Shown: piece by piece, positions 2,332 to 13,567 of the stretch
Position numbering within the stretch: the first letter of the stretch is position 1
Layout: the number at the start of each line of letters is the position of its first letter
From: Candidatus Poseidoniales archaeon
Lineage (GTDB): Archaea; Thermoplasmatota; Poseidoniia; Poseidoniales; Poseidoniaceae
DNA length: 37,207 bases
Reading direction: 5' to 3'
Assembly (NCBI GenBank): GCA_003602485.1
Contig: QQSD01000008.1
Location: 1 to 37,207, forward strand
The notes under the pieces: model-generated
The model's input: only the letters and a program-made list of their open reading frames with translations
Told to the model about the DNA's origin: nothing
The model's database searches: none
Translations under genes and position numbers: made by a program

Positions 2332-3777
2332 TCATCGGTTGCCGCGATGGTTTCGACGTCCTCCGGACGAACCACCTTGCTGACCACCTGAGCGTTGACC
2401 TGAAGAGCCTCTTCCTCCACCACTTTGGTTTCGGTTTCCTCGACCGCCCTGGTTCCTGTTTCCTCCACCGCTTTGGTTTCGGTTTCCTCCACTGCCCTGG
2501 CGAGGGCGTCTCGATTGACCGGAAGCTCCTCCTCCCTTTCCTTTGGAGCGGCCATTGTTTGAACGACGTCGTGAATTGGACGATTTCTTTGCATTTGGGT
2601 CCTTGATTTTACCAGGTTTTTGTCCCGGTTTGGGTCGTGCGTTCTCGAAATGGTATTCGTGGTCTTCGATGACTGGTATCTCGTTGCCAATCAATCGCTG
2701 AATACCTACAAGATAGCCTGATTCGGATTCATCACAGAAGCCGTAGGCGACTCCAGAACGTCCAGCTCGTGCAGTACGTCCGATTCTGTGGACATAGCTT
2801 TCTGGTTCGTTGGGCAGGTCGTAGTTGAATACGTGCGTGATACCGTCAACGTCGATGCCTCTACTGGCGATATCCGTGGCGACCAAAATTGGAATGTTCC
2901 CACGCTTAAATCCGTCAAGTGCCTTGGTTCTCGCACCTTGTGATTTATTGCCGTGAATTGCTGCTGCATCAATGCCAGCCTGACCAAGTTGCTTCACCAA
3001 TCGGTTGGCGCCGTGCTTGGTACGTGTGAAGACAATGCCGCAGGTGACCTCTTCATCAAGGATGATGTTGGCAAGAATTCGGCGCTTGTCCGCTTTGCGT
3101 GTGAACATAATGTGTTGGTCAATACGGTCAACTGTAATCTCCTCGGGGCTCACGTCAACGGTGATTGCGTCTCGAAGAAAGGAGTTGGCAAGGCTTGCGA
3201 TGCTACTGGGCATGGTGGCGCTAAAGAGCAGGTTCTGACGTTTCTTTGGCAAGAGTTTGAGCACCTTCTCAATGTCACGGATAAAGCCCATGTCCAACAT
3301 TCGGTCGGCTTCATCAAGAACAAAGAATTCAACATGTGAGATGTTGATGTGGCCTTGACCGATTAAATCCAATAACCGTCCTGGTGTTGCGATGAGAACG
3401 TCAAGGCCTTTCTGCAATGCACGTACTTGAGGACCCTGCTTGACACCACCAAAAATGACACGGTGGCGTACGTCAAGATGTGTACTGTAGGCGCCAAAGC
3501 GTTCGTCAATTTGTGCTGCTAGTTCCCGTGTTGGTGACAGGACAAGTGCACGAATACGTCGTTTTTGTTGAGGGCGTTCTGCGGTCATGGCTTGTAGAAC
3601 TGGGAGCGCAAAAGCCGCAGTTTTTCCAGTTCCTGTTTGAGCAATTCCCAGAACGTCTTTTCCTGCCAACAGTGGAGGTATGGATTGAAGTTGAACCGGT
3701 GTTGGTGTCTCATAGCCTTCTCTCTCGACGGCTTTGAGCAATTGACTTGAGAGTCCGAGGTCTTTGAAAAGGGTCAT
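2332..3777 (-). CDS. DEAD-box RNA helicase, RhlE-like
   Basis: An ATP-dependent RNA helicase of 481 residues. All core motifs are present in order: Q motif (phenylalanine and TPTPVQLQSIP, residues 4-35), Walker A AQTGTGKT (46-53), PTRELAAQI, TPGRLLD, the DEAD Walker B in VLDEADRMLDMGF, SAT, then the second RecA domain with FTRTKHG, ATDIASRGIDVDG and HRIGRTARAG. The last 80 or so residues are a low-complexity tail rich in Gly, Arg, Asn, Gln and Ser (RGG/GNRNQ repeats), typical of a flexible RNA-binding tail. Such proteins unwind rRNA or mRNA structure, for example during ribosome assembly or cold growth. The ATG at 3777 follows a GGTGA ribosome site by a few bases. The gene diverges from the pseudouridine synthase at 3974. 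Confidence 0.95.
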   Translation of the reverse strand: MTLFKDLGLSSQLLKAVEREGYETPTPVQLQSIPPLLAGKDVLGIAQTGTGKTAAFALPVLQAMTAERPQQKRRIRALVLSPTRELAAQIDERFGAYSTHLDVRHRVIFGGVKQGPQVRALQKGLDVLIATPGRLLDLIGQGHINISHVEFFVLDEADRMLDMGFIRDIEKVLKLLPKKRQNLLFSATMPSSIASLANSFLRDAITVDVSPEEITVDRIDQHIMFTRKADKRRILANIILDEEVTCGIVFTRTKHGANRLVKQLGQAGIDAAAIHGNKSQGARTKALDGFKRGNIPILVATDIASRGIDVDGITHVFNYDLPNEPESYVHRIGRTARAGRSGVAYGFCDESESGYLVGIQRLIGNEIPVIEDHEYHFENARPKPGQKPGKIKDPNAKKSSNSRRRSNNGRSKGKGGGASGQSRRPRQGSGGNRNQSGGGNRNQGGRGNRNQSGGGRGSSGQRSGGQQGGSSGGRRNHRGNR

Positions 3778-3973
3778 TCAGTCACCCACCGGTTGTGATT
3801 TGGCATGAATTTGTACCTGTTGTAAGATTGGGCCATAAGCGACCCTCAGCCATCTCCCCTAAAACCCGATGGGGTTCATTGACGTACATTGTTCACCTTT
3901 TGGCATGCTTGGGTGCTGGCTGGGGCGAAAGGCTAAGGCGAGGTCCCTTGAGGTTCATTCAGAGGTCACGAAG

Positions 3974-4738: not shown

Positions 4739-4789
4739 AGAGACAAAAGACCTTGAAGAAGGACGGTTTGTGCCATTTGAGGAATGACC

Positions 4790-5971
4790 ATGCCCGGCGA
4801 CATGTCTTGGATGAAAGCCCGTTTTGATGAATTGAGTGAACAATCACTCTTGTGGGAGCCGCCCACCCTAGAAGGTCCGAATCAACCACGCTGTCAAATG
4901 GATGGCAAACCGACCATCATGCTTTCAGCAAATAATTACCTCAACTTGACCACTCACCCCAAAGTAACGGCTGCCATGCAGGATGCTACGGCAAAATACG
5001 GTGCAGGCAGTGGTTCTGTTCGAGCGATTGCAGGTACGATGGACATCCACTTGGAAGCAGAGCGCAAGGTAGCTGAATTCAAGGGTGTTGAAGCCTCGCT
5101 CATCTACTCCGCTGGATATACTGTCAATGTTGGATTAATTCCAACTCTGGTCACTGGGCCTAAGGACGTCATCATCTCTGATGCTCTCAATCACGGCTCC
5201 ATCATCGATGGTGTACGATTGACCAAGGCTTCACGAGCGGTCTACGGGCACAACGACATGGGTGAACTTGAAGCCGTTCTCAAGGCCCACGAATCATCTC
5301 AGAGGAAACTCATCATTACCGATGGTGTCTTTTCAATGGACGGTGATATCGCACCCTTGGATGAGGTCACCGCTCTTGCTGAAGAGTATGGGGCCATGGT
5401 CTACGTTGACGATTGTCACGGAGAGGGTGTCTTAGGTGAGGGAGGAGCAGGTATTGTTGACCACTTCAAACTCCAAGGGAAAGTCGACTTTGAGACAGGT
5501 TCATTCTCGAAAGCCTTGGGCGTTCAAGGAGGCATATTGGCGGGCACTGAGATGACTCGTACCCATGCCCTTAACCATTCACGCTCATGGCTCTTATCGG
5601 GTTCTCAGCCACCAGGTGTTGCTGCTGCTCAAAAGGCTGCGATTGAAGTTCTCATGGAAGAGCCAGAGCACCATGCACGTCTCTGGGAGAATACGAATTA
5701 TTTCCGTAAGGAATTGCAATCAATGGGCTTTGATACAGGCGATTCAATCACTCCAATCATTCCCGTTATGTGCGGCGAATCAAGCACTGCCAAAGCAATG
5801 ACACAGGCCCTTGGTGAAGAAGGTGTCATGGCTGGAGCCATTGTCTTCCCTATGGTCGCAAGGGACAAAGCCCGAATCCGAACTCAGATGTCTGCTGGTC
5901 TCTCACGACAAGACCTTGATGATGTGCTCGCATGTTTTGAGCGAGTTGGGCCTCGACTCGGATTGATTTGA
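4790..5971 (+). CDS. kbl: glycine C-acetyltransferase / AONS-like PLP enzyme
   Basis: A fold-type I, alpha-oxoamine synthase family enzyme of 393 residues that condenses an acyl-CoA with an amino acid. Visible PLP site residues: NHGSIIDG (His about 135 stacks on PLP), ITDGVFSMDGDIAPL, DDCHGEGVLG (Asp about 207, His 210) and SFSKALG with the Schiff-base Lys at about 241. The DGVFSMDGD block and overall sequence are closest in my judgement to Kbl, 2-amino-3-ketobutyrate CoA ligase, which links threonine and glycine. No threonine dehydrogenase is nearby, so 8-amino-7-oxononanoate synthase (biotin) remains an alternative. Start: ATG at 4790 lies 7 bases after GAGG (4779-4782); the in-frame ATG at 4784 is too close to it. 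It is probably co-transcribed with the pseudouridine synthase 51 bases upstream. Confidence 0.85.
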   Translation: MPGDMSWMKARFDELSEQSLLWEPPTLEGPNQPRCQMDGKPTIMLSANNYLNLTTHPKVTAAMQDATAKYGAGSGSVRAIAGTMDIHLEAERKVAEFKGVEASLIYSAGYTVNVGLIPTLVTGPKDVIISDALNHGSIIDGVRLTKASRAVYGHNDMGELEAVLKAHESSQRKLIITDGVFSMDGDIAPLDEVTALAEEYGAMVYVDDCHGEGVLGEGGAGIVDHFKLQGKVDFETGSFSKALGVQGGILAGTEMTRTHALNHSRSWLLSGSQPPGVAAAQKAAIEVLMEEPEHHARLWENTNYFRKELQSMGFDTGDSITPIIPVMCGESSTAKAMTQALGEEGVMAGAIVFPMVARDKARIRTQMSAGLSRQDLDDVLACFERVGPRLGLI

Positions 5972-5973
5972 AA

Positions 5974-6564
5974 TCACTCTGATTCAAAGGCATCAACGAC
6001 TTCGAGCAGTTCTGTATCGGAGCCTGCCATAACCTCGGCCTCTGGCGTTGAATCTTCTTTTGTTTCAAGACCCTCAAACGGATCGTTCCCGTCTTCGACC
6101 ATGCACAGCAGTCGCCATCTTGGCGCCCATGAGAGGTGCACGTAAACGGGTCCAGGAAGGAGCAATAAGAGCCAAATCACCACGGATGGAATGGCCATTA
6201 ATTCAGTCCTGTCGATGGAAAGGAGAGCAAGGCCGAGGAACGGCATGGGGTAAAGCAGGTAGCGTGGGGGAGCCATCGGGTGGCGTTTAGAGAAACTGAT
6301 GAGCATGAGGGAGAGAAATCCAGTAACGGCACAGGCTACCACCAGCAAGGAAGTGTGGTAAATCCATTCGACCCCCCAAACTTCGTTGTTTTTGTTGCCA
6401 TATGCATAGGGTAAAAGCAGGGCAAGAGCGATGAGAAGCCCGTAGAATCCACCGATGTTGGCAGGATGGCTGAGCCACAGGGGGAGGCGGGAAAAGCGCC
6501 GAGAGAGCGAGGTTCCAAGCAATGTATCTTGCTCGTGAGGGGCCAAATTAGCGACCCTGCTCAT
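5974..6564 (-). CDS. unknown four-helix membrane protein
   Basis: Not recognised. A 196-residue protein with about four predicted membrane helices (segments containing YGLLIALALLLPYAYG, TSLLVVACAVTGFLSLML, MPFLGLALLSI and VVIWLLLLLPGPVYVHL), followed by an acidic cytoplasmic-type tail of about 45 residues rich in Glu, Asp, Ser. The ATG at 6564 is used; an in-frame GTG at 6585 would add seven residues. It converges with kbl, ending 2 bases from it. The next gene upstream on the same strand (6644-7300) also encodes a membrane protein, so the two may be one unit. Confidence 0.65.
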   Translation of the reverse strand: MSRVANLAPHEQDTLLGTSLSRRFSRLPLWLSHPANIGGFYGLLIALALLLPYAYGNKNNEVWGVEWIYHTSLLVVACAVTGFLSLMLISFSKRHPMAPPRYLLYPMPFLGLALLSIDRTELMAIPSVVIWLLLLLPGPVYVHLSWAPRWRLLCMVEDGNDPFEGLETKEDSTPEAEVMAGSDTELLEVVDAFESE

Positions 6565-6643
6565 CCAAGATTCAGTGGTTGGCACAGGCTGGTGGTCATG
6601 TGGACGGGTTTTGAAGGTAGAGGGTTGATTTCGTCAAAAAACT

Positions 6644-7300
6644 TCATTCTTTGCCCCGGAAAAAGGAAACCAACGGGCTTTCTACATCCAATTCCCCATC
6701 TTCCTCGAGCCATGAACGTTCAAGTAAGCCCGTTTCAATTAACTCTCTACCTCGTGCCTCTTCAATGGGGTCGGGGACTTCATTCACAGCATCCCTCAAT
6801 GCGATGGCTTGGTTGATGAGCGCCATGTGACGGACCAGCTCGGTGGTGCGTTCTTTGGCGGAAGAGAAATGGCCGAGTATCGGGAAATCAATGGTATCTT
6901 GAGCGAGATTGAAGCCTCCGATGAGGTCATCCGGTATGATTCTCAACCGATGCACTCCAGGGTCAATCCATGTGCCATTTGACAATTGGACCAACAGGAT
7001 TGCCTCACCCATCGGCTCTCCGTCCATGAAGGGATGGTGCATATTGACGGCGAGTGGGGTTGAAGCGTGACTGCGAAAGCGCAACCACACAACCGTTCCG
7101 TTGAGCAAGATCATGCCCAACATTACGGTGATTGCGACCATGGTATTGACTGCAACAACGTTCAGGAGAGTACCGATGACGACCGCAACGACGACGCTAC
7201 CTATCCAAGCGATGTTTCGTCCCTTGTGAAATGGCTGTGCAACTGGGGTATTGATGAAGCGAACCATTTCCACCGGGAGTCGGTCCAAGGCATCTCCCAT
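6644..7300 (-). CDS. unknown two-helix membrane protein
   Basis: Not recognised. About 218 residues: a short N-terminal segment, two closely spaced membrane helices (from IAWIGSVVVAVVIGTLL to AITVMLGMILLNGTVVW), then a soluble region of about 130 residues with a beta-rich part (GEAILLVQLSNGTWI, HRLRIIPDDL) and a charged C-terminus. The start is uncertain: the frame is open to a TTG at 7402, and GTG codons at 7357 and 7324 are possible, but these would overlap the DUF309 gene upstream; the ATG at 7300 avoids the overlap. It probably forms a minus-strand unit with the DUF309 gene and the four-helix protein. Confidence 0.6.
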   Translation of the reverse strand: MGDALDRLPVEMVRFINTPVAQPFHKGRNIAWIGSVVVAVVIGTLLNVVAVNTMVAITVMLGMILLNGTVVWLRFRSHASTPLAVNMHHPFMDGEPMGEAILLVQLSNGTWIDPGVHRLRIIPDDLIGGFNLAQDTIDFPILGHFSSAKERTTELVRHMALINQAIALRDAVNEVPDPIEEARGRELIETGLLERSWLEEDGELDVESPLVSFFRGKE

Positions 7301-7331
7301 GTACCGAATACACTGCGGCTCCACTTGAACT

Positions 7332-7718
7332 TCACGCCTGAGGTAGTTGATGGTCACTGGCGACCAGCGACCAGTTGTCCACGTCCTCGACGTATGTTTC
7401 AACGGTGTTCAAATGTAACTCAATATTCAGTCCCCATGCGAGTCTCCAGCCTTCTAATTTAGGATACAATTTCGCCCACTGCTTTACGATGCCAATGCTG
7501 TTTTTACGTTCGTGGTGCAAAAGTAAAGCTGCGGTTTGAATAAGTCCCTGAATCAACAAGATATCTTGACTCGGAGCATCCCTTCCCTTGAGCATGTTCC
7601 ATAGGTCCTCCCAAGATTCGTGAGCGTGCCAAAACGCTCCGCGGTCAAACCGATTGCAGCCTTCATTGAAGAATTCTACTTCGTCGGGAGACAATGAACA
7701 CGCAGGTTGCCTTGCCAT
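7332..7718 (-). CDS. DUF309 family protein
   Basis: A 128-residue protein matching DUF309: the family core is visible as FNEGCNRFDRGAFWHAHESW, with the HxxxE pair (HAHESWEDLW), followed by the helix QDILLIQGLIQTAALLLHHER and the LYPKLEGWR segment. DUF309 proteins are small all-helical proteins of unknown function, found in bacteria and archaea; the conserved His/Glu suggest a possible metal or catalytic site, but no reaction is established to my knowledge. The frame is open to a GTG at 7841, but that overlaps the divergent gene at 7824; the ATG at 7718 puts the family's first helix near the N-terminus and is preferred. Confidence 0.85.
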   Translation of the reverse strand: MARQPACSLSPDEVEFFNEGCNRFDRGAFWHAHESWEDLWNMLKGRDAPSQDILLIQGLIQTAALLLHHERKNSIGIVKQWAKLYPKLEGWRLAWGLNIELHLNTVETYVEDVDNWSLVASDHQLPQA

Positions 7719-7823
7719 GTTCGGGGGGATACGGCGATGCTTGAAACAGTTCGTGTTGGGTGCTATTTCTCCGCACTCTTCAAGAGGGGGTTCGGTGGAT
7801 GTCTTGCTTAACGGTGGTTTATC

Positions 7824-9776
7824 ATGGTCAACATTCCTCACGGTGACCTTATCGAACAGCGACGGGGTGGTGTCGATGTTTTACGGGTTCTCGCAGGGAC
7901 GTTAGCTGCTCATGAGCAATCAGGAGCCGTTGCTCTCCGCCCCCCCGGGAGCACTCTTGATGAGGCAGCGTGGTTGCTGTTTCGCCTTGGCCAACCTGTG
8001 ATGGCATTTTACGAGGGTGAATCTCCTCTTGAGGGTCTTGAAGCCCTCGTAGCTATCGAACATGATGCCATGGAAATCATGACCGATGTGTTGCTTCATG
8101 AAATGTCAATGAGTGACTTGCGAGCAACAATGGAGGCATTCCCGGGGAGTGTTCTCCACCTTGAACATACAAAAGCTGGTTCCTCAGGGGATGAATGGTG
8201 GTCATCTGTTCGCCTTCCGTCCTCATCTTGGCGAAGGGCACTCCGTCCCGAAGATGTTGAGGCGATGGCCCTTGAAAGTGAATTTGCTCAGCGCCCCTCA
8301 CGTCAAACATCACCGAAAATGGGCGCTCAACTGCGGCCTGGCTCTGTGTATCTGCTCGACTCTCCTGACCCTCATCCAATGATTCACCTCGCTACGGAAA
8401 CAGCACAACGTGGACTGCCAATCATGGGTCTGTTCGCGCTCCCGCACGCCGTCACTGAAATCACCAAGCAACTACCCGAACCACATTGTTTTGATTTGCT
8501 CTCCTCGAATAACGGATACACATTGCTCAACGACGAGGATGAGATGAAAAAAGCAGTTCACAACTTTCTCTGGAGTAGTGAGCGCTCGCTTGTCCTCCTG
8601 GATGGATTAGACCGCCTCGGTAATGCTATGGGCGACAAAGCGATGCTGAATTTCTTTCGCAGCCTTGTCGATTTGATTCGTATGGAGGACCATATGATGC
8701 TATGCACGACGGACTTGAACCTCTTTGATACAAGCGTTCAACACGGGCTTCTGGGAGAATGTACCGTTCTTGAGCAATCGGAACTTGACGCCTGGCTTGA
8801 ACAACCCGACGACCTTTGGGAGCACCCAGCTCTGCTCCCTGCCGATGAGGATGAAGAGCGCTGGATTGAAGCCCAACTTCAACACCAACAGCATGATTCT
8901 GTCTCAGGCCAAACACCGCTTGCGTCCTATGAGGGTGGCAGTGTGGAAGTCAACGAACACGATCGCATCGAAGCGACTCAAGCTCTTGGCGCTCTGGTTG
9001 AGGAATGGCCCGAACAATTGACTCAAGAACAAACAGAGGTTCGGAATGCTGTACGCTCTCCCTCCTCTGAACCAAGCACGTGGAGGCCTAACATTCCAGC
9101 CGCATTCAATGAAGGGCGTTTCATTAGCGATGTATTGGCCGATGAGCCAGAAGCAGACACAAAGCCTCAGCCTACGCTTCGAAAGAAGAAGGTGAAACCA
9201 CGGGCAGAACCTCAATCTGCTCCGAAATTACGAACACCTCAGCGTATGTCTCGTCGGGGTGCTGCCCCAACCCTCCCTGTGATTGACCGAGGACTTGACG
9301 CACAGCGAAGCAAAGCAGTAGCCCAGTCGGGAGCCGCTTTACCGGACTGGCCTGCATCTCCTCGGTCTTCACCTGAATTCCGTCAAGAAAACATGGATGG
9401 TTTCACGCAGCGCCAAGATCGGGCCATCACCAATCAAAACCGTACATCCTCTCCGCTCCAACGAAAGGCACTCGATGCCAATGCGGTGGCATCTAGCAAG
9501 GTCGATACAGGGCAGTTGCCACCAGTCTTGAATCCAAAGACGGTGGCCCTTCCCGCAGGCGATGATAGCGTTGAACCTCTCTCAAATTCAGCAGTTCCGA
9601 TTCCTGAATTGCCCAACGAAAAAGCACGGGAAGCAGCACAGTGTTCACAATCCAAACCAACCATGGAGGAAATCTACCAGCGTTGGACGACCTTTGATGA
9701 GGAAGGAAGTATGGATTCAACAGCTCTCTACAACGAAAAGGGCGAGGCACTTGAACGGTACAAAGGTGGTTCTTGA
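7824..9776 (+). CDS. DUF835-like domain protein with long disordered tail
   Basis: A 650-residue protein, first of a coupled trio. Residues about 15-115 form an N-terminal domain I cannot name, with alternating strands and helices (VALRPPGSTLDEAAWLL). Residues about 172-316 resemble the archaeal DUF835 domain: GSVYLLDSPDPHPM, a strand-helix unit (GLPIMGLFALP), then SLVLLDGLDRLG (255-266) followed by a helix and MLCTTDLNLF. This layout recalls a RecA/KaiC-like fold with a Walker B-like strand but no Walker A Lys, so ATP binding is doubtful. From about residue 370 the chain is Pro/Ser/Gln-rich and probably disordered, ending in a short folded segment (MEEIYQRWTTFDEEG). ATG at 7824 follows GGTGG by 6 bases. 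The stop overlaps the next start (TGATG). Function unknown; DUF835 proteins often occur in signalling or regulatory contexts. Confidence 0.7.
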   Translation: MVNIPHGDLIEQRRGGVDVLRVLAGTLAAHEQSGAVALRPPGSTLDEAAWLLFRLGQPVMAFYEGESPLEGLEALVAIEHDAMEIMTDVLLHEMSMSDLRATMEAFPGSVLHLEHTKAGSSGDEWWSSVRLPSSSWRRALRPEDVEAMALESEFAQRPSRQTSPKMGAQLRPGSVYLLDSPDPHPMIHLATETAQRGLPIMGLFALPHAVTEITKQLPEPHCFDLLSSNNGYTLLNDEDEMKKAVHNFLWSSERSLVLLDGLDRLGNAMGDKAMLNFFRSLVDLIRMEDHMMLCTTDLNLFDTSVQHGLLGECTVLEQSELDAWLEQPDDLWEHPALLPADEDEERWIEAQLQHQQHDSVSGQTPLASYEGGSVEVNEHDRIEATQALGALVEEWPEQLTQEQTEVRNAVRSPSSEPSTWRPNIPAAFNEGRFISDVLADEPEADTKPQPTLRKKKVKPRAEPQSAPKLRTPQRMSRRGAAPTLPVIDRGLDAQRSKAVAQSGAALPDWPASPRSSPEFRQENMDGFTQRQDRAITNQNRTSSPLQRKALDANAVASSKVDTGQLPPVLNPKTVALPAGDDSVEPLSNSAVPIPELPNEKAREAAQCSQSKPTMEEIYQRWTTFDEEGSMDSTALYNEKGEALERYKGGS

Positions 9777-11827
9777 TGAACGGGCGAGAGACAAAGTTGC
9801 GCTCCGCCCTCGAGCAAGCCAAAGAAAAGTTACGGGATTCAATCCATGCCAACCAAGGCGCTAAGCCCCCCGTAACCGAAGCCACCCCTCAGGTCACCGA
9901 GGTGAAAGCACAATCAAAATTGAACACCCTTTTGGGAAGAACAACGGTTCCCAATAAGCAGGTGTCGTTGTTTCAACGGGTCGGTGTGGCTCAACGCCCA
10001 ACCTACGACCTCATTGCTGAGCGGGTGCTTGGTCCAGATGTAGGTAAACCTGCAAGTATCTTCGATGACGATACGGGATATGCAAGTCATGTTGCTCATC
10101 GACTGAAACTCCTACAGGAGCGTCTTCAAGCATCTGAAGAACTCGACGACCTTGAGATGGATGATGATGCCTTCGTGGGCGTAGAGCGGGATGGCGAGCC
10201 AATATGGAGCCACATCCTTAACGAACATCGGGGACGTGTGTCCAACGAACTCGACGACATGCTATCCCCTCCCTCCGTCGAAAGCCCCTTCCACTCCACC
10301 AAGGTTTTGGGCTTAACGGCCGGTTGGCCCTCTGCTCTTTCGTGGTCAGAACGTTCGACCTTCAAGCAATGGTTCGTGGCAGAGGAGAATTTCAAGGCAA
10401 CCCAATTGTGTGAGCGGGCCATTGACCATCCTGCTCGCGTCCTCAACCCAGTATTTATCCAGTCCTCTGAAGGTTCGGGTTGTTCCCACCTCCTTCATGC
10501 AACAGGCCAAGCCCTTCTTCGCCGCCAAGAAGGCCAAGTTCTCATGATCAGCGCAGCGGACCTTCTTTCAGTTGACGCTTTGGAACCAGAGTGGCAAGAA
10601 AGCCTCGCATCAGCAATCGCTATGATCGTTGATGACGTACATGAATTTGCACGTGATGAGGCGTGGAGTCATCAATTGGGCATCCTCCTCGACCAGGCCA
10701 TTAACATGGGACTCCAGGTTGTTGCTGGAGGCCGAACCTCGCCCGCCACCATGCCACCCTCAAGACTGAAAGAAGTTCTTAGAAAAGCAGCCATCGCTAC
10801 ACTCGTTTCTCCAAGTCCTTCGACACTCATGGCCTTCGGTCGTTGGCGATGTTCACAACGAAATCTGCTCTTAGGTGACGTTCATCTCGCACGTCTGGCA
10901 CAAATGCAGCCAGAAGGATACCGCACCCTTGACGCTCGTTTGGAACAAATTTCCATTGCCTTTGATGGCGGTGAAGTCCTTCTTGAAGGAGATGATATTG
11001 CTCGTCTTCTCGCACATCATGAGGGTGTGATTCCGCGCGTAGGGCCTCAAGTTGGGGTGCAGCAACCTGTGGAGGATTTGGCCAATCGATTGATTGGCGA
11101 TGCGATGGACCACGTTTATTCCACGCTCGATACGGGCGGTATCGAATTACACAGTTCCATTGAACCCATGAAAGAGGATTCCTACCAGCCTCCCCAGTGG
11201 GATGAGAACACGTTCACAGCCGACAATGAAACTCAATTTGACCGTAGCATACGCGAATCAATACAACGCGTTACGCCAGCCAAACCCTCTGTACTCGACG
11301 TTCATGAGCGAGAAGAATTCCTCCTCAATCGCCATGAACGACTTGGAGGTGCTGATGTCAATCGTGCTGTCGATGTACTGGTGGACTTGGATGAACTCAT
11401 TGATGCGAGAATGGATGATTCAAGTCGTTCGGCAGTTTCCAATTCGCTTGAACTTAACCAGCTTGAGGAACGGATGGTCGTACTCGCCCAGCGCGCAGTG
11501 AATGCGGATATTGAGGAATTGATCGTCATCGCCGATGAACTCCGAACGCTTGAGGAACGCTTGGTTGAACTCGACCCTGAACGAGAGGCTTTGCCGGCAT
11601 TCGAAGAGGATGCTGTGATTGAAGGACAGCGCCGCAAGGCAAGACGGAGAACTTCAGTCAAGCCTACAGAAGAAGCACTTGACTCATACGAACCCGAAGG
11701 TGAGTGGGACGTTGATGCCGATGACGTCAGTCCAACTGAGTTGCTTCAAAGTGAGGCTCCAGCATACAATGTTGTTCATCTCGCCCGCCTGCGCAAACGG
11801 CAGGTTCTGCAGGGTGAAGAGGAATGA
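9776..11827 (+). CDS. DnaA-like AAA+ protein, Walker A degenerate
   Basis: A 683-residue protein whose middle (about 194-360) looks like the AAA+ core of bacterial DnaA: the TFKQWFVAEENFKA entry motif, NPVFIQ, then SSEGSGCSHLLHATG (230-244), the strand VLMISAADLL, Walker B IVDDVHEF (284-291), and a sensor-like segment VVAGGRTSPATMPPSRLKE. In DnaA the P-loop reads GxxGxGKTHLLHA; here the Lys is Cys236 and the Thr is Ser237, so nucleotide binding is probably lost or altered. The DnaA C-terminal DNA-binding domain (domain IV) is not visible; instead there is an acidic linker, a predicted coiled coil near residues 550-625 (LEERMVVLAQRA and ELRTLEERLVELDPER) and a charged tail. The start ATG is 6 bases after GGTGG and the stop overlaps the next gene by 4. 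Alternative: another clade of inactive AAA+ regulators. Confidence 0.7.
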   Translation: MNGRETKLRSALEQAKEKLRDSIHANQGAKPPVTEATPQVTEVKAQSKLNTLLGRTTVPNKQVSLFQRVGVAQRPTYDLIAERVLGPDVGKPASIFDDDTGYASHVAHRLKLLQERLQASEELDDLEMDDDAFVGVERDGEPIWSHILNEHRGRVSNELDDMLSPPSVESPFHSTKVLGLTAGWPSALSWSERSTFKQWFVAEENFKATQLCERAIDHPARVLNPVFIQSSEGSGCSHLLHATGQALLRRQEGQVLMISAADLLSVDALEPEWQESLASAIAMIVDDVHEFARDEAWSHQLGILLDQAINMGLQVVAGGRTSPATMPPSRLKEVLRKAAIATLVSPSPSTLMAFGRWRCSQRNLLLGDVHLARLAQMQPEGYRTLDARLEQISIAFDGGEVLLEGDDIARLLAHHEGVIPRVGPQVGVQQPVEDLANRLIGDAMDHVYSTLDTGGIELHSSIEPMKEDSYQPPQWDENTFTADNETQFDRSIRESIQRVTPAKPSVLDVHEREEFLLNRHERLGGADVNRAVDVLVDLDELIDARMDDSSRSAVSNSLELNQLEERMVVLAQRAVNADIEELIVIADELRTLEERLVELDPEREALPAFEEDAVIEGQRRKARRRTSVKPTEEALDSYEPEGEWDVDADDVSPTELLQSEAPAYNVVHLARLRKRQVLQGEEE

Positions 11828-12300
11828 GGGCGCCCTGGTGGATGAAGGGTGTCAACTTTTCTTGCCAACCAGCATGCGGTCGTTGCTGCAATCAACCGGG
11901 TGGCATTGTCTATCTCTCTCCAGACGATGCACAACGACTGGCAGGACATGCATCACTCGGGGTCGAAGATTGGCTTGAACGTGATGCGCGTCAAACCTAT
12001 GACGGTCGTTTTGTTTTGAAAAGCCGAGAAGAAGATGGCGTGTGCATTCACCTCAACGAACAACAACAATGCAACGTGTATGAGGTGCGACCTCAACAAT
12101 GCAAAGCCTTCCCGTGGTGGGGTGAAAATTTGGCCACTCAAACGGCGTGGGACAAGGTCAAGCAATCATGTCCAGGCATTGACGCTGAAGACGCTCTCTT
12201 AATTGACGGCCACACCATTCGACTCCACATCTTTTCGGACCGTACTTCGACAAAGGGCTTTCGAACGTGGCCACCCGAGCCACGCAAGAGAAAACGATAG
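11824..12300 (+). CDS. YkgJ-family cysteine cluster protein
   Basis: A 158-residue protein with the CxxxCxxCC pattern of the YkgJ/UPF0153 zinc- or iron-chelating family: Cys14, Cys18, Cys21 and Cys22 (CQPACGRCC), then CIHLNEQQQCNVYEVRPQQC, which matches the family's second half (C...C..Y..RP..C..FP) and continues KAFPWW. A further Cys is in KQSCPGID. Members bind a metal or Fe-S centre; some are linked to flagellar lysine methylation (FliB) or are of unknown function. The ATG overlaps the stop of the DnaA-like gene (ATGA, 11824-11827), so the protein is made with the DUF835 and DnaA-like proteins and may be their metal-bearing partner or modifier; that link is inference. Confidence 0.85.
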   Translation: MRAPWWMKGVNFSCQPACGRCCNQPGGIVYLSPDDAQRLAGHASLGVEDWLERDARQTYDGRFVLKSREEDGVCIHLNEQQQCNVYEVRPQQCKAFPWWGENLATQTAWDKVKQSCPGIDAEDALLIDGHTIRLHIFSDRTSTKGFRTWPPEPRKRKR

Positions 12301-12397: not shown

Positions 12398-13567
12398 ATG
12401 TTGAGCGATGAAGATGACTTGTTTACGGTGACTTCCTCTCACCTCAACACAGGTCTACGTGGTGTTCCCGTAGGAACCTGCCGAACCTCCTTCGTGACGC
12501 CTACAGAGGGCGTGCACTATTGCGGCTACCCCATCGCTGAACTCGCTCATTTCCCTCCAGAAGACATCGTGTATCTGTTGTTCAACAAAGAACTGCCAAC
12601 CGAAGCACAATCTGAAGCCTTCAAGGCAGACCTTGCATCACGAGGTCAGGTTCCTCCCAGTATTGCTGCTGTGTTCCACACCCTTCCAAAAGACGGACAT
12701 CCCATGGACTGGCTGAGCATCGGAGTGCACACACTCGGCATGATGGAAACAACGGGCGATTGGAAAGAAGACACCATGAATTTGATCGCTCGTATGCCCC
12801 GAATGATGGGTCTATTATTCCGTATTCGTGAAGGTCGTGGTGATGATATTCCAGAAGACGATTTGTCAGCGAGTATGGTCAAGAGATTTGTACAAACGCT
12901 TGCTATCGACGACGTTGACCACGATTTGATGGAGCGCATCCTCGCAACCTACCTCGTGCTCCACATGGACCACGGTGGCGGAAACCTCTCCACCTTCACC
13001 GGCAAAGCAATCGCATCAGGACACGCTACAGTCTATGCTTCCATTGCAGGGGCTATGAATGCCCTTTCAGGACCACTTCACGGACGAGCAAACCAGTCCT
13101 GCTTGGAATTTGTCCTTCGTATTGGCACCAGCGACCCTGAGGAAGTCGAAGCCTTTGTCCGTGGCGAATTGGAAGCAAAGCGTCCGGTGTTTGGTTTTGG
13201 CCACGCAGTATTGCGAGCTGAAGACCCTCGTGCTACGGTTCAGTTTGCACTCGGAGAGGAACTCTGTCCCGAAGATGAGAACTTCAAAATCATCCGAACG
13301 CTGCGTGAGGTGGCTCCTCGAGTACTGTCAGAGAACCCTAAGATTTCCAATCCCAATGCCAATGTTGACATCGCAAGCGGCGCCTTGCTTCACCACGTTG
13401 GTTTCAAGGACCCGACCTATTACACGACCTTCTTTGGATGGGCGCGTGTTGCTGGTATCGGTGCTCAAATTGTTGATGAGCGCACGGTGATGCGCTCGGG
13501 CAAGGGTACGCCGATTTACCGGCCCAAGTATTTCGCGGAACAACAAAGCCTTCGTCATATCGAATGA
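12398..13567 (+). CDS. gltA: citrate synthase, eukaryote-like type
   Basis: Condenses acetyl-CoA and oxaloacetate to citrate, the entry step of the citric acid cycle. 389 residues. Catalytic residues are visible: His228 in SGPLHGRANQ, His269 in GFGHAVLRAEDPRA, Asp324 in NVDIASGALL; the upstream HMDHGGGNLSTF block (His192) is also conserved. The GHAVLR-DPR and HGGGN forms, and the C-terminal YYTTFFGWAR segment, look closer to mitochondrial-type citrate synthase (also found in some bacteria such as Geobacter) than to the short archaeal/Gram-positive type with GFGHRVYK. Arg residues that bind citrate are probably conserved but I did not check each. It is preceded by a TATA-like box and GGAGG, and probably transcribed alone. 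It converges with the phosphodiesterase gene, overlapping its last 13 bases. Confidence 0.93.
   Translation: MLSDEDDLFTVTSSHLNTGLRGVPVGTCRTSFVTPTEGVHYCGYPIAELAHFPPEDIVYLLFNKELPTEAQSEAFKADLASRGQVPPSIAAVFHTLPKDGHPMDWLSIGVHTLGMMETTGDWKEDTMNLIARMPRMMGLLFRIREGRGDDIPEDDLSASMVKRFVQTLAIDDVDHDLMERILATYLVLHMDHGGGNLSTFTGKAIASGHATVYASIAGAMNALSGPLHGRANQSCLEFVLRIGTSDPEEVEAFVRGELEAKRPVFGFGHAVLRAEDPRATVQFALGEELCPEDENFKIIRTLREVAPRVLSENPKISNPNANVDIASGALLHHVGFKDPTYYTTFFGWARVAGIGAQIVDERTVMRSGKGTPIYRPKYFAEQQSLRHIE

Follow-up and report, generated by a model that had tools for sequence, protein, structure and literature searches.

The window, the whole 37,207-nt stretch of DNA analysed here, has relatives by sequence in the genus Poseidonia (family Poseidoniaceae, order Poseidoniales). 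At the locus under study, three genes, termed X1, X2 and X3, are arranged head to tail, with NTGA overlaps at both junctions (Table 1). The open reading frames of 650, 684 and 158 residues are confirmed at the positions given in the initial annotation. The first overlap comprises 4 bp if the TTG at 9773 serves as the start codon of X2 and shrinks to 1 bp if translation begins at the ATG at 9776 instead; the second comprises 4 bp (ATGA). Across 35 related loci, most of them from Poseidoniaceae, all but one at each junction have an overlap of exactly 4 bp, which is far beyond chance. The dN/dS values relative to the related locus L070 are 0.078 for X1, 0.079 for X2 and 0.029 for X3, indicating purifying selection, whereas in values from a more distant pair the synonymous sites are near saturation. 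This conservation, together with the dN/dS values, rules out pseudogenes or sequencing errors, and the three genes are real, under selection and almost certainly co-transcribed. The initial annotation held that they must be translated together; the conserved overlaps do imply co-transcription and make translational coupling probable, but 'must' is too strong. On the upstream side, the longest open reading frame of the divergent DUF309 gene overlaps the start of X1 by 18 bp (window region 5974–7841), and this gene is followed by two open reading frames (6644–7402 and 5974–6585) that have no Pfam match and are conserved across the order.

Table 1. Features of the X1–X3 locus and its flanks (window coordinates)
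Feature	Position	Strand	Basis
DUF309 gene, divergent, flanking the trio	7332..7841	-	Pfam; kept in some genomes without X1–X3
X1: DUF2226-like N-domain, DUF835 and long tail, 650 aa	7824..9776	+	ORF, Pfam, orthologues, dN/dS 0.08
X1 N-terminal domain, residues 1–115, with conserved E-x-RRGG motif	7824..8168	+	Profile matches; confident fold in model
X1 DUF835 (inactive-KaiC, RecA-like) domain, residues 172–316, no Walker A	8337..8771	+	Pfam match at residues 240–304, orthologues, fold matches
X1 tail, residues 317–650, mostly low confidence or helical	8772..9773	+	Model pLDDT mostly <60
Overlap of X1 stop and X2 start, TTGA	9773..9776	+	1 bp if ATG at 9776 is used
X2: DnaA/Hda-type AAA+ protein, 684 aa	9773..11827	+	ORF, Bac_DnaA 6.6e-11, 20/20 orthologues, dN/dS 0.08
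X2 AAA+ domain, residues 190–395	10340..10957	+	pLDDT ~90; Foldseek to DnaA domain III
X2 degenerate P-loop SSEGSGCS, residues 231–238, Lys replaced by Cys237	10463..10486	+	Sequence, orthologue comparison
X2 Walker B Asp-Asp, residues 287–288, retained	10631..10636	+	D288 without exception, D287 in at least 90%
X2 C-terminal long helices, residues 526–600	11348..11572	+	Model, pLDDT ~88–90
Overlap of X2 stop and X3 start, ATGA	11824..11827	+	Junction reading
X3: PF03692 cysteine-cluster protein, 158 aa	11824..12300	+	Pfam, conserved Cys, dN/dS 0.03
Citrate synthase, downstream flank	12398..13567	+	Pfam; kept where X1–X3 are absent

The N-terminal domain of X1 is homologous to the N-terminus of fused proteins from other Thermoplasmatota: positions 3–113 of the X1 profile match the protein of locus L163 at 1.7e-13 and positions 4–65 match that of L171 at 6e-7. 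In the homologous protein of L173, DUF2226 (PF09987) is matched below the cut-off (E = 6e-4, 19.8 versus 22 bits), and the same profile finds no match in X1 itself, hence the domain is called only DUF2226-like. For the second domain, the Pfam match to DUF835 (PF05763) in the X1 of the window lies below the cut-off (E = 5.9e-5, 23.3 versus 33.1 bits), and X1 orthologues reach E = 7.6e-18, above the cut-off (68.5 bits in genome G031 and 54.4 bits in G040). This domain also matches RecA and KaiC folds weakly (best E = 1e-4); a search of PDB sequences with X1 found nothing. DUF835 has been listed as 'iKaiC', a KaiC domain that has become inactive and is found in signal transduction proteins of archaea; it has no Walker A motif (PMC5847659). 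The initial description of X1, with an apparently inactive RecA/KaiC-like DUF835 domain, is accurate as to composition and the missing motif, but the absence is the norm for the family and not an unusual feature of X1. A second DUF835 protein is encoded in the genome of the window (L259:7618–8478, on contig C14 of G000); in Poseidoniales it is conserved next to the genes for urocanase, histidine ammonia-lyase and an EF-hand protein, and genomes G023 and G024 contain no DUF835 at all.

X2 carries a Bac_DnaA domain (PF00308) above the Pfam cut-off (E = 6.6e-11, 43.1 versus 23 bits), which is matched in all 20 orthologues scanned. Its modelled AAA+ domain superimposes on DnaA domain III of Bacillus subtilis and Thermotoga maritima with TM scores of 0.81–0.82 by target length in Foldseek, and also matches the Hda fold. 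In the P-loop of the window protein, the lysine is replaced by cysteine and the first glycine by serine. The lysine is missing from all 17 Poseidonia X2 sequences, with cysteine in 14 and glycine, threonine and isoleucine in one each, and is thus not the product of a sequencing error. Arginine occupies the position in genera g10, g12 and g13, and lysine itself is found in g5, g7, g9, g11, g14, g16, g17, g18, g19 and g22, while the orthologues keep the preceding glycine, the following serine or threonine and the Walker B aspartate. Judged by these sequences, the X2 of Poseidonia is a lineage-specific pseudo-ATPase, which has very probably lost ATP hydrolysis. The broken P-loop noted in the initial annotation is thus characteristic of this genus, but most other genera retain the lysine, so that an inability to bind ATP does not characterize the system as a whole.

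The evidence that carries the interpretation of X1 and X2 lies outside the order. When 243 genomes of the phylum were scanned with Bac_DnaA, strong matches (E < 1e-20) were obtained in about 20 genomes outside Poseidoniales, and the open reading frames around these were searched with the X1 and X2 profiles. Single proteins consisting of the X1 N-domain, then DnaA and then DUF835 were found by profile search at L171, L172, L173, L175 and L176, and the same layout was read from the translation at L174, so that a DUF2226-like domain, a DnaA-type AAA+ domain with an intact P-loop and DUF835 share one polypeptide in six genomes, all from Thermoplasmatota families outside the order. The corresponding Pfam matches to Bac_DnaA and DUF835 are 3e-60 and 8e-22 (L171), 5e-59 and 3e-21 (L172) and 4e-46 and 2e-23 (L175). 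Partial versions also occur: DnaA followed by DUF835 in one protein at L181 (2e-22 and 9e-25), a single protein at L163 that joins the N-domain to DnaA and has long coils, DnaA and DUF835 as neighbouring genes at L164, and a run on one strand at L167 (6452–9954) in which a DnaA protein bearing fn3 is followed by a KaiC-like ATPase, the P-loop of which is intact, and then by a DUF835 protein with a 7TM sensor. DnaA-domain proteins of 1213–1407 residues with long coils are encoded at L163 (6976–11199), L165, L166, L177 and L178; that of L163 exceeds the NCBI 'DnaA' cut-off (367.7 versus 343.9 bits), yet no domain IV is detected in it by Pfam. The neighbours of the fused genes are not uniform, with radB directly downstream at L172 (3575–4267) and L173 (6347–7030), and a zinc-ribbon helical protein at L171, L175 and L176.

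We define the DnaA-DUF835 module as a DUF2226-like domain, a DnaA-type AAA+ domain and DUF835 in one gene or in adjacent genes, a composition that is found in X1–X2. The fused proteins resemble X1 and X2 in having the three modules, including the homologous N-terminus, but combine them in the order N-domain–DnaA–DUF835 with an intact P-loop, whereas in Poseidoniales they are divided between an N-domain–DUF835 protein and a separate DnaA protein, the P-loop of which has been lost in Poseidonia. X1 and X2 are the separately encoded parts of a widespread, apparently undescribed module. Since their parts are fused elsewhere, this Rosetta-stone evidence argues for X1 and X2 functioning as a single unit, and the two proteins very probably form one physical complex. 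In a tree of DnaA domains, X2 is set apart from the rest and no fused group is placed specifically closest to it, so that the tree does not establish direct descent of X2 by splitting; the change may have been a split or a fusion.

X1–X2 is best read as a hub of the iKaiC kind, serving in signalling or as a scaffold. Like the iKaiC signalling proteins, X1 contains an inactive KaiC-like module without Walker A, but those proteins have been described with REC and PAS partners (PMC5847659), whereas X1 is paired with a DnaA-type AAA+ protein. The statement that no system of this composition has been described agrees with our search, in that no paper pairing DUF835 with DnaA was found in the literature covered, which did not extend to the main review of KaiC hubs. 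A regulatory or scaffold role is, on balance, favoured for X1–X2, and the explanation as a whole, in which the two proteins form a hetero-complex that acts as such a hub rather than in initiating replication, is the best available, with about even chances of being correct. The proposal of a non-catalytic regulatory or scaffold complex made in the initial annotation thus survives as the best reading, but not in its premise, because loss of the ATP site is not system-wide and DUF835 usually has no Walker A.

The main rival is that X1–X2 is a DNA-transaction complex for recombination, repair or chromosome organization, with the AAA+ protein serving as a loader or as the partner of a RecA-family filament. 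The DnaA fold of X2 would suit such a role, as would the radB genes (TIGR02237, above the cut-off) that follow the fused gene in two families, at L172, with a 4-bp overlap, and at L173, and the SMC/Rad50-like coils of some other Thermoplasmatota DnaA proteins such as that of L163. However, radB is not adjacent at L171, L175 or L176 or in Poseidoniales, no DNA-binding domain IV is detected, and the P-loop has been lost in Poseidonia despite strong purifying selection, so that we consider this reading unlikely.

X3 was correctly identified as a cysteine-cluster protein: it matches PF03692 (CxxCxxCC) above the cut-off (E = 1.4e-11, 45.3 versus 23 bits) and has conserved cysteines at positions 14, 18, 21, 22, 74, 83, 93 and 116. 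Like the PF03692/YkgJ family, and the similar cysteine motif of FliB, it contains CX3CX2CC and four further conserved cysteines, but it differs from the family in gene context. X3 always adjoins X2; it lies on the opposite strand at L043, L044, L129, L130, L131, L132 and L182, all from f2, the second family of the order, and on the same strand at L042. We infer from the two-family taxonomy (PMC6461757) that f2 is Thalassarchaeaceae. Because X3 is inverted in most loci of this family, it is a looser partner than X1 and X2 are to each other, and its inclusion as a core member is not sustained. That it provides an input to the complex is possible but doubtful. The genome of the window contains a second PF03692 gene (contig C60 of G000, 3603–3902), whereas nine tested genomes without X1–X3 have no gene of this family whatsoever.

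A second alternative assigns the trio to the archaellum or adhesion apparatus, with X1–X2 as regulator or scaffold and X3 as a FliB-like [4Fe–4S] protein that modifies archaellin. FliB, a flagellin methyltransferase marked by [4Fe–4S]-dependent methylation of lysine, is much larger than the 158-residue X3, which counts against this reading. In its favour, the cysteine motif of FliB was likened by its authors to PF03692 (PMC8598068), archaella have been reported in all Poseidoniaceae and in half of the genera of Thalassarchaeaceae (PMC6461757), and archaellin (PF01917) is matched in 26 of the 30 genomes with X1–X3 versus four of the 20 without. Among these 20, the assembly of G038 also has no citrate synthase, and a gap in the assembly may be all that accounts for the absent X locus there. 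The correlation is broken by genera g7 and g22, which have the trio and no archaellin, and by g4, which has an archaellin-like match and no trio, and some 130 kb separate the trio from the archaellin locus in G040, a closed genome. It is also confounded: the tested genomes without X1–X3 do not contain the second DUF835 gene or the second PF03692 gene either, so that general gene loss in the clade explains the archaellin pattern, and the published distribution of archaella by family means that shared ancestry suffices for archaellin to track the trio. The link is accordingly rejected as improbable.

It may also be asked whether X1, X2 and X3 are functionally unrelated and remain together only through synteny in a slowly rearranging order. 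The linkage of the genes, checked by gene-order search, is conserved across the order, and wherever X1 and X2 both occur in the Poseidoniales loci examined, they are adjacent. The trio nevertheless lies within a stretch of more than ten equally syntenic genes, from a KBL-like enzyme (4784–5971, an aminotransferase of class I/II by Pfam) to the citrate synthase and GDPD genes, so that adjacency alone is weak evidence and the fusions carry the weight. In a set of 26 genomes, X1 and X3 are both present in three and both absent from 23; X2 is distributed likewise except for a weak match of its profile (1.9e-16) in G135, where X1 and X3 are absent. Three of these 23 (G006, G011 and G074) come from the family that bears the trio and are probably incomplete, while 13 genomes of six f2 genera have both flanks on a single contig without the trio. 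Such co-loss is not accepted as proof of shared function, as it could reflect a single block deletion, and the clade has lost other genes too. Against a synteny-only explanation stand the conserved 4-bp overlaps and the fusion of the X1 and X2 parts in other families, which make it quite improbable for the trio, although it may hold for X3.

DnaA is the textbook initiator of bacterial replication, whereas archaea use Orc1/Cdc6. That X2 is a diverged initiator or a regulator of initiation, in the role of DnaA or Hda, is suggested by its fold and profile similarity: as in bacterial DnaA domain III and Hda, the AAA+ fold (TM 0.81 to domain III of B. subtilis DnaA) and Walker B are retained. X2 differs from these proteins, however, in its long extra termini, in the absence of the P-loop lysine in this genus, in a host that uses Orc1/Cdc6 and in having no detectable DNA-binding domain IV, the Pfam profile of the DnaA C-terminal domain giving no match in 20 orthologues. 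It also falls below the equivalog cut-offs for DnaA (TIGR00362, 54.0 versus 343.9 bits) and Hda (TIGR03420, 45.3 versus 194.8 bits) and is absent from whole genera. Orc1/Cdc6 is kept in all 50 Poseidoniales genomes tested, 48 of which carry two copies, irrespective of the presence of X1–X3; this disfavours a part in replication initiation. The tie to replication raised initially is dropped on the basis of the Orc1/Cdc6 copies and the missing domain IV, and an initiator role is highly improbable. An anti-phage defence system is rejected, as PADLOC gave no match for X1, X2 or X3.

In conclusion, we propose for the signalling or scaffold hub that X1 and X2 are made from one mRNA and assemble as one hetero-complex, in which the module would comprise a DUF2226-like domain as adaptor, an AAA+ domain of the DnaA/Hda type and DUF835 for docking. 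ATP would drive assembly or switching of the AAA+ part in most relatives, with partners docking on DUF835 and the N-domain; the Poseidonia form, without the P-loop lysine, would keep only an ATP-independent assembly or scaffold role. In Poseidoniaceae, X3 would be co-expressed with the complex as a metal or Fe–S protein and might act as a modifier or as a redox or metal input. A bolder version, which we regard as speculative and rather unlikely in full, is that Thermoplasmatota exapted the AAA+ domain of a bacterial-type DnaA, stripped of the DNA-binding domain, to serve together with DUF835 as the motor in a KaiC-like signalling hub, and that in Poseidonia this motor became a pseudo-ATPase scaffold, the state of which is set by the co-translated Fe–S protein X3. 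The fusion in relatives provides a concrete prediction of an interaction between X1 and X2. Sister genera show a graded loss, from lysine to arginine and then to cysteine, and so provide a natural set of variants in which to study the conditions under which an AAA+ protein can dispense with ATP. A DnaA-type AAA+ domain that is linked to an inactive KaiC-like domain, has no domain IV and recurs across an archaeal phylum implies that this domain serves a purpose other than replication.
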